53,049 nt of DNA from Gemmatimonadota bacterium. GTDB taxonomy: Bacteria > Gemmatimonadota > Gemmatimonadetes > Longimicrobiales > Gaopeijiaceae. The notes below the pieces were generated by a model. The model was given only the letters and a program-made list of their open reading frames with translations. It was not told where the DNA came from and searched no databases. Positions 7,400-14,212 of this stretch are shown here, in pieces. The position numbers and the translations under genes are program-made. The stretch covers positions 1 through 53,049 of the forward strand of contig JAJCZZ010000103.1 of the NCBI GenBank assembly GCA_029262115.1, given 5' to 3'. Each line of letters begins with the position of its first letter. Positions within the stretch are counted from its first letter, which is position 1.

Positions 7400-7785
7400 T
7401 CACGCTGGTCGGAAAATAGTCTCTCCGGTACACCAGGGCACCAGGCGGCCGTCGCGGAAGTCGCGAGCGATCTTGATGGCGTCGCGTCGATCGGTCTTTC
7501 GATGCTCGCCGGCGCGACGTGGAATCAGCGACGGGGCGGCGAGATCGCACAAGACGCCCCACTCAGCGAAGGAGCGCTGAAGCACGTAGCCGGCCCCGAA
7601 GCTTCGTAGCATGCGCGGACAGTGCCTTCGGCTTGCAGGCGCTGAACGTAGCGCCGGATCTTCTTGAGATCGTAGGGCAGGCGATCGACGCGCAGGGGCT
7701 CGGCGTCACGGTCGCGGATGACGGCGGCGGTGACGGACTCCTTGTGGACGTCCATGCCGAGCCAGAAATTGTGGGATGATGACAT
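7400..7785 (-). pseudogene. IS110-family transposase, truncated and frameshifted
   Basis: Two overlapping minus-strand frames together give the N-terminal half of an IS110-type DEDD transposase. Frame one (from ATG 7785) carries the first catalytic Asp in GMDVHKESV and the Glu in CYEASG. Near positions 7600-7620 the homology moves to another frame, which continues with GYVLQRSFAEWGV and the KTDRRDA motif holding the final acidic residues of the RuvC-like domain. The frame then ends at 7400. The C-terminal Tnp domain with its catalytic Ser is absent, so the enzyme is dead. A ribosome-binding site AGGAGG precedes the start (7796-7801 on the minus strand). Confidence 0.85.
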
Positions 7786-8371: not shown

Positions 8372-11071
8372 CTACTCCGCCCCCAACACCTCCATCGGAT
8401 CCGTCCGCGCCGCACGCCGCGCCGGCAGCCAACCGGCCACGAGCGCGACCACGAGTAGCGTCAGCGCCGCCCCGGCGAACGTGGTCGGGTCGCTCGGTTC
8501 CATCCCGTACAGGAGGGAGTCGACCACCGGCGTGGCCAGATAGGCGAGCCCGAGTCCGAGCGCCAAACCTACGAGCGCGATGGCCGCGACCCGTCGCATG
8601 ACGAGGGCCAAGACTCCGTCGGGCCGCGCTCCGAGGGCGAGCCGGATCCCCATCTCGGAGCGTCTGCGCGCGACCGCAAAGGCGGTGATGCCGTGGAGAC
8701 CGATCGAGGCGAGCAGGAGCGCGAAGACCCCGAAGAGCGTCAACAGTCGGGAGAAGACACGTTCGCTGCTCATGGCAGCCGCCATCTGAGCCTCCTGCGT
8801 CCGCACGTCGGTGATCGGCAGGCCGGCATCGGCCCGAGCGACCGCGTCGCGAAGATTGCGCTCGAGCTCGGGCCCGGAAGATGCGGCGCGCACAGCCACA
8901 TGCGTCCTCGTCGACCCTCGCTGCGCGGCAGCGTCGAAGAAGGTCGGGACGGCACCGTCCCGGAGGTCCGCGTACGGCGTGTCACGGGCTACGCCCACAA
9001 CCAGGATGTCGGTTTCCCCTCGGCGGAACGAGCGCCCGATGGCGGCGCCGCCGAACAGAGTCCGGGCGGCCGCCTCGTTGACCACGGCCACCACCGGCCC
9101 GCCCGCCTCGTCTCCCTCGTCCAAGGCGCGGCCAGCCACGATCGGAATCCGGAACGTTTCGAAGAAGTCCGGACCGACCGCGTTCATGTAGATGCTCACG
9201 GGGTCGCCTCCGTCCACGACCACCCTGGTGTTCGACGTCCACCCGCTGAGAAACACGTTCTCGATGAGGGTCGCGCTCCGCACGCCCGGCGTTTCGCGAA
9301 CGTTTGCAAGAACGCGGTCGAACAGGCCCGGCACCTCGGAGGGGTCGTCCGTCACCGCCGACGCGTCCAGCGCGAACACCGTGAGGCCCGACGGATCGAA
9401 GCCGGGATCGAGTTGGTTCAGATTCCCAACGGTGCGCAGCAGGAGCCCTCCTCCGATGACGAGGGGAGTGGCCGCCGCGATCTGCGCGATGATCAGTCCG
9501 CTGGCGAGCTTCGACCGGGCCGCCCCCACCCCCCGCGTGCCGAGCCCATGACCAGCGTGGAGTCGCGTGGCGCGCAGTGCCGGGATCAGGCCGCTGACGA
9601 GAGCCACGACCACCGCGACCGCCCCCGTCATTGCCAGCATCCGGCCGTCGAGCTGGAAGTGCAGGCCTGTCACCCCCATCCCGGCGGTCAGAGCCGCGGC
9701 GACGAGAGGCGCGCCCCACATGGCCAGAAGCACCCCCAGCACCGCGCCTGCGGTGGCGACCACGATGCTCTCCAGCAGGATTGGCCACACGAGGAGGGCG
9801 CGCGAGGCCCCGAGCGCCTTTCGTACCGCCATCTCCCTGGAGCGTGACAGTCCGCGGGCGAGCAGTAGCGTGGCCACGTTGGCGCAGGCGATGAGAAGAA
9901 CCAGCAGAACCACGACGGCCAGGATCTTCAGCGGACGCTCCGTGGATCCCCGCACGGTGTCGAGCCCTCTGCGTCCGGGCAGGAGTCGTGCGACGACCCC
10001 GCTGCCTTCGTCAACCGGGACCCGACCTTCCGCCAGGTAGTGGTCGCGGAGCACGGACGTCATGGAGCGCTGAACCAGATCGTGCGCCTCGTCTCCCGGG
10101 ATCCGCGCGATCAGGCGCAGCCAGAAGATATCGCTGGAGGAAAAGAGCGACTCGTCCTCTGGGGTCCACCGAGGTGCCACGCTCGGCTGTGCCACGAGCG
10201 GTAGGGTGATTTCGGTCGATGGGAAGAATCCCCCGGGCGAGAGCCCGACGAAGCCACGTCCCGTGACCCCGACGATCTCGGCGGGGGCTCCGTTGACGCG
10301 GATCGTCCGGCCGAGGACGCCGGGGTCGCCGCCGAAGGCTTGCTGCCAGAACGCGTGGCTCAAGGCGGCCACCAGCGGGGCGGTCGGGTCGTCGTCTGTG
10401 GGCTGGAGCGAACGTCCCAGCGCCATGTCGACGCCGAGGACGTCCAGGAACGTGCCCGACGCGAGGAGTCCGCTCGCGGGCACGGCGGGTCGACCGGCGT
10501 CGACAACGGCCAGGTTGCGCGCGAAGGTATACGCGGCGACCGCCGACGGTGCCGGAAGATCGGCCTGGACAGCCCTGAACGCCGGGTAGGACACGTTGCT
10601 GTGAAGTGTGGCTCCGGTTTCCGGGTCCGCTGTCTGGCTGGAGTTGATGTTCGACCCGCCCTGGAAGCCCCTCGGCCGGAGGTGGTAGGGGAAGGCCAAC
10701 TCTTCGGGGGCGTGCACCGGGAGGGACTCGAAGACCAGGGCCTGCAAGACGCTGAAGATGGCCGTGTTCGCACCAATGCCGAGACCCAGCGACCCCACTG
10801 CGACCGCAGTGAAGCCGGGACTGCTCAGGAGGCGGCGAAGGACGGGGCGCACTTCCAGGACATCCGCGTCGAGCCGCTCGATGCTCGCCTTCCAGAACCA
10901 GAGCGGGAGGGCCGCGACCTGCCGGAAGTACCAGAGCGTGGCGGACCGGCCGCGTGCGCGGCGTTGGACATACTGCTCTCTCAGGTCGCCGAGCACCTCC
11001 GCCCGTTCGCTCCGGGGCAGCAACAGCCCCAGCAACCACTGAGCAAAGCGAGGCGGTCGGTGGGATGCCAT
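8372..11071 (-). CDS. ADOP-type ABC transporter permease (MacB/FtsX family)
   Basis: An 899-residue inner-membrane protein. The N-terminal ~80 residues (RFAQWLLGLLLP, then EVLGDLREQYVQR) match the prefix domain typical of ADOP permeases of Acidobacteriota and Gemmatimonadota. A transmembrane helix (FTAVAVGSLGLGIGANTAIF), a large MacB-type periplasmic domain, and two FtsX-like blocks of three helices each (near ILAVVVLLVLLIACANVATL and near the C-terminus) follow. No ATPase gene is adjacent. ATG 11071 was chosen because it overlaps the padR stop (TGATG); an upstream in-frame start lies inside padR. The exported substrate is unknown; the partner regulator suggests control by an effector. Confidence 0.92.
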   Translation of the reverse strand: MASHRPPRFAQWLLGLLLPRSERAEVLGDLREQYVQRRARGRSATLWYFRQVAALPLWFWKASIERLDADVLEVRPVLRRLLSSPGFTAVAVGSLGLGIGANTAIFSVLQALVFESLPVHAPEELAFPYHLRPRGFQGGSNINSSQTADPETGATLHSNVSYPAFRAVQADLPAPSAVAAYTFARNLAVVDAGRPAVPASGLLASGTFLDVLGVDMALGRSLQPTDDDPTAPLVAALSHAFWQQAFGGDPGVLGRTIRVNGAPAEIVGVTGRGFVGLSPGGFFPSTEITLPLVAQPSVAPRWTPEDESLFSSSDIFWLRLIARIPGDEAHDLVQRSMTSVLRDHYLAEGRVPVDEGSGVVARLLPGRRGLDTVRGSTERPLKILAVVVLLVLLIACANVATLLLARGLSRSREMAVRKALGASRALLVWPILLESIVVATAGAVLGVLLAMWGAPLVAAALTAGMGVTGLHFQLDGRMLAMTGAVAVVVALVSGLIPALRATRLHAGHGLGTRGVGAARSKLASGLIIAQIAAATPLVIGGGLLLRTVGNLNQLDPGFDPSGLTVFALDASAVTDDPSEVPGLFDRVLANVRETPGVRSATLIENVFLSGWTSNTRVVVDGGDPVSIYMNAVGPDFFETFRIPIVAGRALDEGDEAGGPVVAVVNEAAARTLFGGAAIGRSFRRGETDILVVGVARDTPYADLRDGAVPTFFDAAAQRGSTRTHVAVRAASSGPELERNLRDAVARADAGLPITDVRTQEAQMAAAMSSERVFSRLLTLFGVFALLLASIGLHGITAFAVARRRSEMGIRLALGARPDGVLALVMRRVAAIALVGLALGLGLAYLATPVVDSLLYGMEPSDPTTFAGAALTLLVVALVAGWLPARRAARTDPMEVLGAE

Positions 11072-11400
11072 CAGAGCTCCGCCTCCAACAGACCCTCGAT
11101 CCCGTCGAGCAGGGCGTTCCACTCGTCCCGCGCTTCCCTCAGCGCGGTTCGGCCCGCCGTGGGCACGGAGTAGTACCGGCGAGGCCGGCCCCCACGTTCG
11201 GGCGTGGGCTCCCCCGAGCGCGAGGTCAGCAGGCCGCGGGCGGCCAGGCGCCGGAGTGTCACGTACACGGCTCCCTGCGACACGTCGCGTCGGGTGCGGT
11301 CCTCCAACTCCTGGACGATTGCCGCGCCGTATGCGCCGTCGTCGAGTCGAAGCACGGCCAGGAGCAGTAACTTCTCGAACCCACCCAATGTCTCGGCCAC
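11071..11400 (-). CDS. PadR-family transcriptional regulator
   Basis: A 109-residue winged-helix regulator. It starts MAETLGGFEKLLLLAVLRL, has the PadR core DGAYGAAIVQELEDRT followed by VYVTLRRLAARGLL, the wing GGRPRRYYSVP, and a short C-terminal dimerisation helix. PadR proteins usually repress the adjacent gene and are released by small molecules. It is co-transcribed with the ADOP permease (one-base stop/start overlap), an arrangement common in Acidobacteriota and Gemmatimonadota. An imperfect palindrome 49 bases upstream is a candidate operator. Confidence 0.93.
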   Translation of the reverse strand: MAETLGGFEKLLLLAVLRLDDGAYGAAIVQELEDRTRRDVSQGAVYVTLRRLAARGLLTSRSGEPTPERGGRPRRYYSVPTAGRTALREARDEWNALLDGIEGLLEAEL

Positions 11401-11448
11401 GGTCCCTCCACTGTCCGGATCAACCCCTGAGTCACTCTATCATTTAAA

Positions 11449-11463
11449 CCTGACACTGTCGGG
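11449..11463. promoter_or_regulatory. Imperfect palindrome, candidate PadR operator
   Basis: The 15-base sequence centred on 11456 reads CC-x-GACA-c-TGTC-x-GG: six of seven position pairs are complementary. It lies 49 bases upstream of the padR start and about 40 bases upstream of the forward promoter-like sequence at 11500. That position fits an operator for the padR promoter. Classical PadR sites are ATGT-N8-ACAT, which this is not, so the link to PadR is only by position. Confidence 0.3.
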
Positions 11464-11499
11464 TTGCAAGGGGTTGGAAGGAGCAAACGACCGGTCGAG

Positions 11500-11528
11500 T
11501 TGTGGCCCGGTTGGGGCTTCTCTATATT
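11500..11528 (+). promoter_or_regulatory. Sigma70-type promoter-like sequence for a forward RNA
   Basis: TTGTGG at 11500-11505 and TATATT at 11523-11528 are separated by exactly 17 bases. The -10 matches the consensus at five of six positions and stands out in this GC-rich DNA. Predicted transcription start is about 11535, just before the foldable segment. The upstream gene padR points the other way, so this promoter would serve only the candidate RNA and, by read-through, the pterin operon. Confidence 0.45.
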
Positions 11529-11534
11529 CCTTGG

Positions 11535-11727
11535 GCGTGTCGGTGGGCTCAATTATTGAGCCAACGCAAGAGAAGCCGGGACTGACTTCCGGGCTGGACG
11601 TTATGCCCTTCGCGGGAAAACGGAGCGCCTGGAGAGGTCACCATCAATTCATCCCGGGCTTCAATAAAACCCCGTCGATGCGCTTTCGGGGGTCGTGATC
11701 CGCAAGGACGCGGCCCCCGATTTTTTT
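11535..11727 (+). ncRNA. Candidate structured RNA: sRNA or terminating leader of the pterin operon
   Basis: From the predicted start the RNA can form a 5' hairpin (arms 11546-11552 and 11556-11562, flanked by CGT/ACG and CTTG/CAAG pairs). A closed domain follows: 11572-11581 pairs with 11652-11662 with one bulged base. It ends in a strong intrinsic terminator (11686-11727). A short A-C4 segment at 11669-11673 can pair with 11689-11693 inside the terminator's 5' arm, a possible antiterminator. The segment does not match any riboswitch or housekeeping RNA that I recognise. Whether it is a stand-alone sRNA or an attenuator for the operon beginning at 11901 is open. Confidence 0.45.
11686..11727 (+). 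terminator. Strong intrinsic terminator ahead of the pterin operon
   Basis: A stem of about 15 pairs (outer arms TCGGGGG at 11686-11692 and CCCCCGA at 11714-11720, continued inward with two GU pairs and one bulged A) closes on a GCAA tetraloop. Seven T residues follow at 11721-11727. The T-run is on the plus strand. It must therefore end a short forward transcript that starts after padR, or act conditionally on transcription into the pterin genes. Confidence 0.85.
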
Positions 11728-11900: not shown

Positions 11901-12344
11901 GTGCCCACGGTCCGAGTTACCCGTCGCGTGCATTTCTCGGCGGCGCACCGCCTCTTCCGGGAGGACTGGTCGGACGAGCGGAACGCGCAGACGTTTGGCG
12001 ACTGCGCGAATCCCAACTGGCACGGTCACAACTACGAGATGGACGTCACGGTGGTCGGCCCGATCGACCCCGAGACGGGCTTCGTCATGGATCTCAAAGA
12101 CCTGAGAGACGCCCTGGAGGCCCGCGTGCTCCGGGACGTGGATCACCGAAATCTCAACCTGGAGGTCTCCTGGATGAATGGTGTGAACCCGACCACCGAG
12201 AACCTCGTGGTGGCGATCTGGGATCGAGTGGCGCCATCACTGCCGTCCGGCGTTTCGCTCGATCGGATCGTCCTTCACGAGACGCCCCGCAACTCCGTCG
12301 AGTACACCGGGCCCGACTCTTCTGAGCTTCGAGGTGGTTCGTGA
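11901..12344 (+). CDS. 6-pyruvoyl-tetrahydropterin synthase (eukaryote-like PTPS-I type)
   Basis: A 147-residue protein, the normal PTPS length. Zinc ligands are H16 (FSAAHRLF) and H41, H43 (WHGHNY). The catalytic Cys is C35 in [12 protein letters not shown], with D81-H82 (VDHRNLN) and E127 (LHETPRN). The spacing of the Cys before HGH, the NPN and the NLN segments match animal-type PTPS rather than bacterial QueD. It would convert 7,8-dihydroneopterin triphosphate to 6-pyruvoyl-tetrahydropterin on the way to tetrahydrobiopterin. GTG 11901 is preceded by AGGAG six bases upstream; upstream in-frame residues are unlike the family. The stop overlaps folE (GTGA). Confidence 0.9.
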
Positions 12345-13060
12345 TCGGATCCGCCGATGCTCCCCTGGGACGGTCGCTGCGGTACCCTGCGGACGTTCCC
12401 GGGTCGGTGGACGACCGGTCCGTCGACACCGCCTCCGTCGACACCGCCTCCGTCGACATCGCGTCCGCCGATCACACGTCGGTCGACCTGTCGGGCGTCT
12501 CCTACGAGGCCCTCGTCGCCGAGATGATCCGGCGTAGCGGAGACGACCCGGAACGCGAAGGCATGCTCAAGACGCCCGAGCGCGTCCGGAAGTCGATGGA
12601 GTTCCTGACGTCGGGATACCACATGACGCCTGACGACGCCATCGGAGACGCGCTCTTCACGGAGTCGCATCAAAACATGGTGCTGGTGCGCGACATCGAA
12701 CTGTACTCGCTGTGCGAGCACCACCTCCTGCCGTTCTTCGGCAAAGCACACGTGGCGTACATCCCCGACGGTCGCATCATGGGCCTGTCCAAGGCCGCGC
12801 GTATTGTGGATGTGTTCGCGCGACGGTTCCAGGTTCAGGAGCGGCTGACGGAGCAGATCGCGCAGGCGGTGTGGGACACGATCCAGCCGCAAGGCGTGGC
12901 CGTCGTGGTCGAGGCGTACCACCTGTGCATGATGATGCGGGGCGTCCAGAAGCAGAACTCGAAGACCATTACCTCGGCCATGCGCGGGGCGTTCCTCGAG
13001 GACCACCGCACGCGGGAGGAGTTCCTCCGACTGGCCACGGACAACAGCGGTCCGCTATGA
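12341..13060 (+). CDS. folE: GTP cyclohydrolase I
   Basis: A 239-residue enzyme that opens GTP to 7,8-dihydroneopterin triphosphate, the common precursor of folate, biopterin and deazaguanines. The catalytic core starts near residue 55. Zinc ligands are C125 and H128 (LCEHHLLPF) and C196 ([11 protein letters not shown]). The first ~50 residues are an extra low-complexity tail with an S-V-D-T-A type pentapeptide repeat encoded by 15-bp DNA repeats (12419-12487); typical FolE proteins lack it. The GTG start overlaps the synthase stop by four bases, and the stop overlaps the SDR start (ATGA), giving a tight operon. Confidence 0.96.
12419..12487 (+). repeat. 15-bp tandem repeat in the folE N-terminal coding region
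   Basis: Two identical units TCCGTCGACACCGCC (12419-12433 and 12434-12448) are followed by two diverged units (12449-12463, 12464-12478) and a partial one (12479-12487). Each unit encodes five residues of the form S-V-D-x-A. Being a multiple of three, copy-number change would keep the reading frame. The repeat lies outside the catalytic domain, so it probably lengthens a flexible tail. Confidence 0.85.
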
Positions 13061-13776
13061 GGGAGTCCGATTCGCTTCGGGGTCAGGCCGCGCTGGTCAC
13101 GGGCGCGAGCCGCGGCATCGGAGCGCGCGTGGTCGAGCGCTTCACCGGGGCGGGCGCGCGGGTCTGGGCGATCGCGCGCTCGGAAGATGCGCTGACGGAA
13201 CTGGCGTCACGCACGGGGGCGATTCCGCTCCCGCTCGATCTGACGGATGAGGCCTCCGTGTGGGACGGCCTCGATCGGTTGCACGACCAGTTGAGAGGAG
13301 CACCAAACCTGGTGGTGAACTCGGCCGGAATCTTCGGTATGGAGATGGCGCATCAGGAGACCGTGCGGGGCTTCGATGAAGCCATCGCCGTGAATTTGCG
13401 TGCTCCGTTTCTGGTGATTCGTTCCGTCCTGCCGGCCATGCTGTCCCGTGGCTCGGGAACGATCGTAAACATCGGCTCGGTTTCAGGCCGTCGCGCATTC
13501 CCCGCGAACGGTTCGTATTCCGCGTCGAAGTTCGGACTGCGCGGGTATCATGAGGTGCTGCTGGAGGAGCTGCGCGGCACGGGTGTTCGGGCCACGCTCG
13601 TGGAGCCGGCCGCCACCGATACCGCGATGTGGGACGCGCTGGACCCGGACAACGATCCGAATCTTCCCGACCGGGACGGTATGTTGTCGGCCGATGACGT
13701 GGCCGACGCCGTGATGTACGCCGTGACCCGCCCGGAAACGGTCCGGATCCCTCTTCTCCAGATCGAGCACGGGTAG
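13057..13776 (+). CDS. Short-chain dehydrogenase/reductase, candidate sepiapterin-reductase role
   Basis: A 239-residue classical SDR. NADP(H)-binding TGASRGIG is at residues 15-22, followed by the NSAG motif and the catalytic Ser in GSVSGRRAF and Tyr/Lys in YSASKFG. The sequence alone supports an oxidoreductase of the FabG/SDR type. The sepiapterin reductase assignment comes from its place between folE and a second pterin synthase, because the third step of tetrahydrobiopterin synthesis is an SDR-catalysed reduction. The ATG overlaps the folE stop (ATGA). A general 3-ketoacyl reductase role cannot be excluded. Confidence 0.85.
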
Positions 13777-13783
13777 GCGGTCG

Positions 13784-14212
13784 ATGAGCGGACGCTACGT
13801 TTACACCATCAGCGCGCGGGCTCACTACGATGCCGCGCACTTTCTGGAGAACTACGACGGGAAGTGCTCGCGGGTCCACGGGCACCGCTACGTGGCCGAG
13901 GCCGCCATCCAGTCGCCCGAACTGGACGAGAACGGGCTCGCCTTCGACTTCGCGGACCTCAAGCGCGAACTGCGCGCTCTTGCGGACCGACTGGACCATG
14001 AGCTTCTCAACGACCTCCCGGAGTTCGACGGCGTTCCCACGAGCGCGGAGAACCAGGCACGGTGGTTCTACGAGTCCCTGCAGGGTCGGTTGCCGGACGC
14101 GCTGGCCGGTGGGTTGATCTACGCTCGCGTCTGGGAGTCGCCGACCCAGTGGGCTCAGTACGGCCCGGAGGGCGCCCCGCTTCCGGCTCCGGGCGGGCTG
14201 TCCGGCGAGTAG
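13784..14212 (+). CDS. queD: 6-carboxy-5,6,7,8-tetrahydropterin synthase (QueD-like)
   Basis: A 142-residue T-fold synthase. Zinc ligands are H19 (YDAAHFL), H32 and H34 (RVHGH). The catalytic Cys is C28 in DGKCSRVHGH, only four residues before HGH as in QueD, with D71-H72 (RLDHELLND) and E118 (VWESPTQW). The Cys spacing separates it from the PTPS-I paralogue 1.4 kb upstream. It should make 6-carboxytetrahydropterin for queuosine or another deazaguanine. It starts seven bases after the SDR stop. QueE and QueC are not in the window, so the pathway must be completed elsewhere. Confidence 0.9.
   Translation: MSGRYVYTISARAHYDAAHFLENYDGKCSRVHGHRYVAEAAIQSPELDENGLAFDFADLKRELRALADRLDHELLNDLPEFDGVPTSAENQARWFYESLQGRLPDALAGGLIYARVWESPTQWAQYGPEGAPLPAPGGLSGE

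Follow-up and report, generated by a model that had tools for sequence, protein, structure and literature searches.

Does the segment at positions 11500-11727 of this Gemmatimonadota DNA encode an RNA of its own, or is it the leader of the pterin operon that lies downstream? The window, meaning the whole 53,049-nucleotide stretch that was analysed, holds here a promoter-like sequence, a foldable region and a terminator, and the sequence-only reading had proposed either a candidate sRNA or a riboswitch or attenuator responding to pterins or deazaguanines. The sRNA part of this proposal stood, with own promoter, own terminator and a conserved covarying structure in its favour, and the riboswitch part did not. 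The segment is almost certainly the ssrS (6S RNA) gene of this genome, monocistronic and with its own promoter and terminator. Since it is a 6S RNA, the kind of RNA is already known: the Gemmatimonadota RNA is a divergent lineage of that kind and not a new riboswitch, and its novelty is that of an unrecognised, diverged 6S lineage that is nearly universal within one phylum. In other bacteria 6S RNA is a housekeeping RNA, an open-promoter mimic restraining RNA polymerase, and as such a global regulator of bacterial transcription. The features of the locus are:

11500-11528, forward strand: sigma70-type promoter TTGTGG-N17-TATATT, read directly (TTGTGG at 11500-11505, TATATT at 11523-11528); the -35 box is poor in the window copy
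11535-11684, forward strand: 6S RNA body from model R1, its probable start deduced from the -10 box and from where the closing stem begins
11536-11547, forward strand: closing stem, 5' strand, pairing with 11671-11682
11553-11562, forward strand: P2, 5' strand UUAUUGAGCC, pairing with 11657-11667; putative part of the pRNA template
11563-11578, forward strand: central bubble, 5' strand, from alignments with E. coli ssrS
11572-11580, forward strand: collapse helix, 5' strand GAAGCCGGG, pairing with 11653-11662
11579-11642, forward strand: apical (internal) stem-loop, a 14-pair helix plus two distal helices
11643-11656, forward strand: central bubble, 3' strand, unpaired in the covarying structure
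11657-11667, forward strand: P2, 3' strand GGCUUCAAUAA, common to P2 and the collapse helix
11671-11682, forward strand: closing stem, 3' strand, pairing with 11536-11547
11686-11727, forward strand: intrinsic terminator, read directly, a hairpin of -29.4 kcal/mol followed by seven Ts (11721-11727)
11901-12344, forward strand: PTPS/QueD family gene (Pfam PTPS, 2.3e-33), head of a QueD-FolE-SDR-QueD operon

The segment is its own transcription unit. At the same place in relatives, a -10 box agreeing with TATATT at five or six of the six positions was present in 26 of 30 loci, with 0.3 expected, and a terminator-like hairpin lay 3' of the RNA in 19 of 29 relatives versus 5 of 90 random places, the terminator's own sequence not being conserved among relatives. 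The retained -10 box and the excess of terminator-like hairpins over random places therefore document an independent transcription unit, with an RNA gene of about 150 nt plus terminator. The whole transcript is more stable than 200/200 dinucleotide shuffles (z -4.7); without the terminator the folding z is only -2.1, so it is conservation that constitutes the real evidence. In a DNA search of 59 relatives, most members of the same family had a single copy of 11533-11677, or of the greater part of it, in each genome. A protein-coding reading, in the overlapping 164-aa ORF at 11204-11698, was rejected: aligned relatives are separated by single-base indels, and the conserved letters are thus not a reading frame. 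No tRNA or tmRNA was found in the window.

The promoter, 5' hairpin, closed domain and terminator picked out from the letters alone all lie where they had been placed, and the comparison of relatives shows how they are combined. The covarying structure is the 6S rod of closing stem, P2, central bubble and apical stem. Covariation in relatives, proposed earlier as a check on the fold, was found: among near relatives 92.7% of cells are paired and 22 of the 42 pairs have changed on both sides, whereas pairing falls to 37-54% in controls with slid partners. Changes on both sides affect 8/8 pairs of the outer and 2/3 pairs of the inner helix of the closing stem, and seven pairs of the apical 14-pair helix, in which 93.3% of cells are paired (all near relatives). 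P2 is paired in 93.6% of cells in the family, and its 5' strand UUAUUGAGCC corresponds in the alignment to E. coli CCUGAGCC. Across the phylum 90.4% of cells are paired and 35 of 42 pairs show double changes, with 94.7% of cells paired and 6/10 pairs changed on both sides in P2 (UUGAGCC/GGCUUCAA), in an alignment that leans towards the structure because it was fitted to the model. The 5' hairpin GGGCTC..GAGCC (11546-11562) is reinterpreted as one of two uses of GAGCC, the conserved partner of which is GGGCUUC near the 3' end. As a fixed element this hairpin was discarded; many relatives keep only its GGC/GCC part, and the conserved fold has GAGCC paired to the 3' strand. Two further elements of the sequence-only reading fell away: the A-C4 run suggested to act as an antiterminator contains CCCC at 11670-11673, which belongs to the closing stem as its 3' strand, and an inverted repeat that overlaps the promoter (11515-11523 with 11569-11577) is absent from the relatives' sequences compared.

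The closed domain, GAAGCCGGG at 11572-11580 with CCCGGGCTTC at 11653-11662, forms a second helix in which GAAGCCGGG pairs with CCCGGGCUUC in the RNA. This helix is paired in 97.4% of cells and is invariant in the family, and for that reason yields no covariation. Its 3' strand is common to P2, which makes the two pairings mutually exclusive. The P2 fold and the collapse fold have nearly equal predicted energies (median difference -0.9 kcal/mol), and when the template strand was blocked in silico 17 of 28 copies refolded into the collapse helix. In other families the complementary segments differ; across the phylum the complementarity exceeds that of 95% of shuffles in 16/47 copies, and no copy was worse than the average shuffle (47 copies, a few of them misparsed). 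The central bubble collapse helix of Bacillus subtilis 6S-1 and Aquifex aeolicus 6S RNA is formed by the 3' strand of P2 and the distal 5' bubble (PMC8876501). The predicted second pairing in Gemmatimonadota matches this type, its putative refolding element likewise linking those two segments, and differs from it in that the helix has 9 pairs here and is near-invariant in the window's family.

Membership in the 6S family was established through orthologues. The Rfam 6S model RF00013 (full model 1-187, curators' cut-off 46.4 bits) did not match the window copy even at E 10, and a scan of the window against Rfam, with both the gathering and a permissive threshold, yielded only chance matches to ArcZ and to a CRISPR repeat (E about 0.4). 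Among 59 near relatives the RF00013 cut-off was reached in none, and 57 gave no match at all. As tmRNA was found by the same method in 29/29 relatives, the gap in 6S annotation lies with the model rather than with the genomes, and the missing match of the window copy is taken as the limit of the model's reach. In G056, a genome of another family in the same order, RF00013 gave a sub-threshold, full-length match (E 0.006) that coincides exactly with the orthologous RNA preceding QueD. Over 298 genomes of the phylum 28 matches were obtained at E <= 0.1, most of them over the full model and many upstream of the same QueD-FolE genes. Full-length matches to the orthologous RNA, in other families of the class and the phylum, reached 56.6 bits in locus L034 and 53.3 bits in L035, both above the cut-off, and 42.3 bits in L036 and 40.5 bits in L037 (E 1.9e-6), both below it. 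A match to a common housekeeping RNA, which the sequence-only reading had named as counting against its riboswitch guess, was thus obtained through orthologues, two of them above the cut-off. Many of the matched loci have in common with the window the signature UUGAGCC[A/G]A...GGGCUUCAA.

Covariance models built from the Gemmatimonadota RNA lead to the same family. Model R1, made from 29 close relatives (almost all from the window's family, with a few from a neighbouring one in the order), matches the window at 11530-11686 with 152.8 bits, the window copy itself being in the model. R1 matches the same places as RF00013 (L034 64.2, L037 76.6, L035 51.7 and L036 41.2 bits), and a chain therefore runs from the window copy through family, order and class to the Rfam 6S RNA. 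Model R2, made from 51 Gemmatimonadota copies including some that RF00013 also recognises, gave ssrS the highest score when run over 10 kb of E. coli K-12 (21.1 bits, E 0.0014; runner-up 10.5 bits). The alignment is in register, with UUGAGCC against CUGAGCC and GGGCUUCAA against GGGUUCAA, so that UGAGCC and GGUUCA of E. coli ssrS both fall in place. R1 alone also ranked E. coli ssrS first in the 10 kb, but not significantly (10.0 bits, E 0.29). The best RF00013 match in the phylum, L033 (G309 contig C266, 62.5 bits), is unlike the phylum's own 6S and its contig is probably contamination; R1 does not match it, and the same genome has an R1 match of its own elsewhere. It was dropped as a homology link because it resembles a different lineage and lacks an R1 match. 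The Gemmatimonadota RNA resembles E. coli ssrS in length class, closing stem, central bubble and apical stem, in a P2 with UGAGCC/GGUUCA-type strands, and in being a free-standing gene beside a folate-pathway gene (fau/ygfA, of folate metabolism, in E. coli; GTP cyclohydrolase here). It is shorter, at about 150 nt, is too diverged in the window's family for the Rfam cut-off, and is predicted to form the collapse helix in place of the 3'-bubble hairpin of E. coli.

Of 298 Gemmatimonadota genomes, 282 gave a match to R1, almost always a single one, and R2 found the RNA in 5 of the 16 that R1 had missed, so that the two models recover 6S RNA in 287/298 genomes (96%). RF00013 is above cut-off in 3/298, one of these probably on a contaminating contig, and Rfam annotation thereby leaves almost the whole phylum without 6S RNA, an apparent absence that is a gap of the model. 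The loci bearing the RNA are mostly labelled Gemmatimonadetes/Gemmatimonadota, Gemmatimonadales or Longimicrobiales, and a few are MAGs that carry other labels. No paper on 6S RNA or ssrS in Gemmatimonadetes, Gemmatimonas or Gemmatimonadota was found in the open-access literature, and an earlier description elsewhere is possible. Five genomes (G036, G040, G044, G052 and G277) have two matches each to the 6S model; these may possibly be second 6S paralogues, which are known in Bacillus. The copy L032 (41.8 bits) lies directly before a tRNA gene.

The alignments also place the putative template of the pRNA. C11565 lines up with U44 of E. coli, the known pRNA start there. Every correctly parsed copy has C or U at the equivalent position (misparsed copies being left out of the template count), by which a purine start of the pRNA is kept. 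The predicted pRNA would be 5'-GUUGGCUCAAUAAUU, with 5'-GUUGGCUCAAU as its expected beginning. By analogy with 6S biology in other bacteria, which would supply RNA polymerase binding, pRNA synthesis and release alike, the central bubble of the rod would mimic an open promoter and bind the RNA polymerase holoenzyme with the housekeeping sigma factor, and the holoenzyme so held would restrain transcription, chiefly when growth slows. Upon return of NTPs the polymerase would transcribe a short pRNA from the 5' strands of the bubble and of P2, starting at C11565 and running back to about 11551. Its synthesis would open P2, the freed 3' strand GGGCUUC would pair with GAAGCC, in the distal part of the 5' bubble, to give the collapse helix, and the rod would change shape and release the polymerase. 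The models supply a template for testing both the pRNA and the refolding.

A 6S-like rod in a lineage with almost no matches to the 6S model is also what Ms1 of Actinobacteria presents, an RNA that binds core polymerase (PMC9130861) and not the sigma holoenzyme. That the Gemmatimonadota RNA is likewise a 6S-like RNA with altered function would fit its rod and its strong divergence from known 6S RNAs, but the pRNA template GAGCC-R-A-Y (a point of difference from Ms1), the pyrimidine at the start position and P2 are kept phylum-wide, and such a change of function is highly improbable. The retained template, start and P2 suggest that use of the template is conserved.

Still less credible, by a little, is that the RNA is the riboswitch or attenuator leader of the pterin/deazaguanine operon, with a ligand shifting the balance between P2 and the collapse helix and hence termination. 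In the window, where the operon occupies 11901-14212, the gene after PTPS/QueD encodes GTP cyclohydrolase I (4.5e-75), the upstream neighbour, a PadR regulator, is divergent, and a terminator lies between the RNA and the operon. The operon is next to the RNA, close downstream, in 21 of the 27 near-relative loci whose sequence was long enough and in 18 of 20 loci of the phylum sample, mostly from other families, a linkage tighter than expected of a random neighbour. The closeness of the operon, the terminator in between and the existence of two mutually exclusive pairings speak for this reading. Folate/pterin and preQ1 riboswitches are often located upstream of folE or que genes, and the RNA here usually is too; in contrast to them, it gave no match to any known riboswitch family of Rfam at gathering or permissive thresholds in the window, and it persists at loci that lack the gene or have a convergent one. 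The operon is absent beside the RNA in 8/47 loci (6/27 near relatives and 2/20 of the phylum sample). A convergent gene follows in L002 (TPR), L009 (M14 peptidase), L012 (Na/Ca exchanger) and L186 (exchanger-like, by resemblance), and regulation in cis is for this reason impossible in these four; in L014, L020, L028 and L185 the neighbouring genes are unrelated and the RNA is kept. As the RNA persists without the operon alongside, cis control of that operon cannot be all that it is selected for. In Bacteroidota, outside the phylum, QueD homologues have no such RNA upstream, and sequence and fold are explained by 6S homology. The identification as 6S RNA thus removes a false riboswitch candidate.

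For a 6S RNA, the place before the GTP cyclohydrolase/QueD operon might still be functional, through read-through of the terminator or through polymerase held on the nascent RNA, though this is rather unlikely. If it were so, pterin/folate synthesis would be coupled to the 6S cycle phylum-wide, paralleling the 6S-ygfA arrangement of proteobacteria, where ygfA/fau is often the adjacent gene. In several other taxa 6S has the 5-formyl-THF cyclo-ligase gene ygfA beside it (PMC9130861), and the recurring association of 6S with folate/pterin genes in phyla that are not related can now be put to the test. The 6S locus is more variable upstream than downstream: the window has on the reverse strand, at 8372-11400, the PadR regulator and then a large permease that resembles the FtsX/MacB type, and many relatives have in their place what appear by eye to be fumarase or endonuclease IV genes. 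Further upstream, at 7525-7785 on the reverse strand, an ORF resembles by eye an N-terminal piece of an IS110-type transposase and is probably a remnant.
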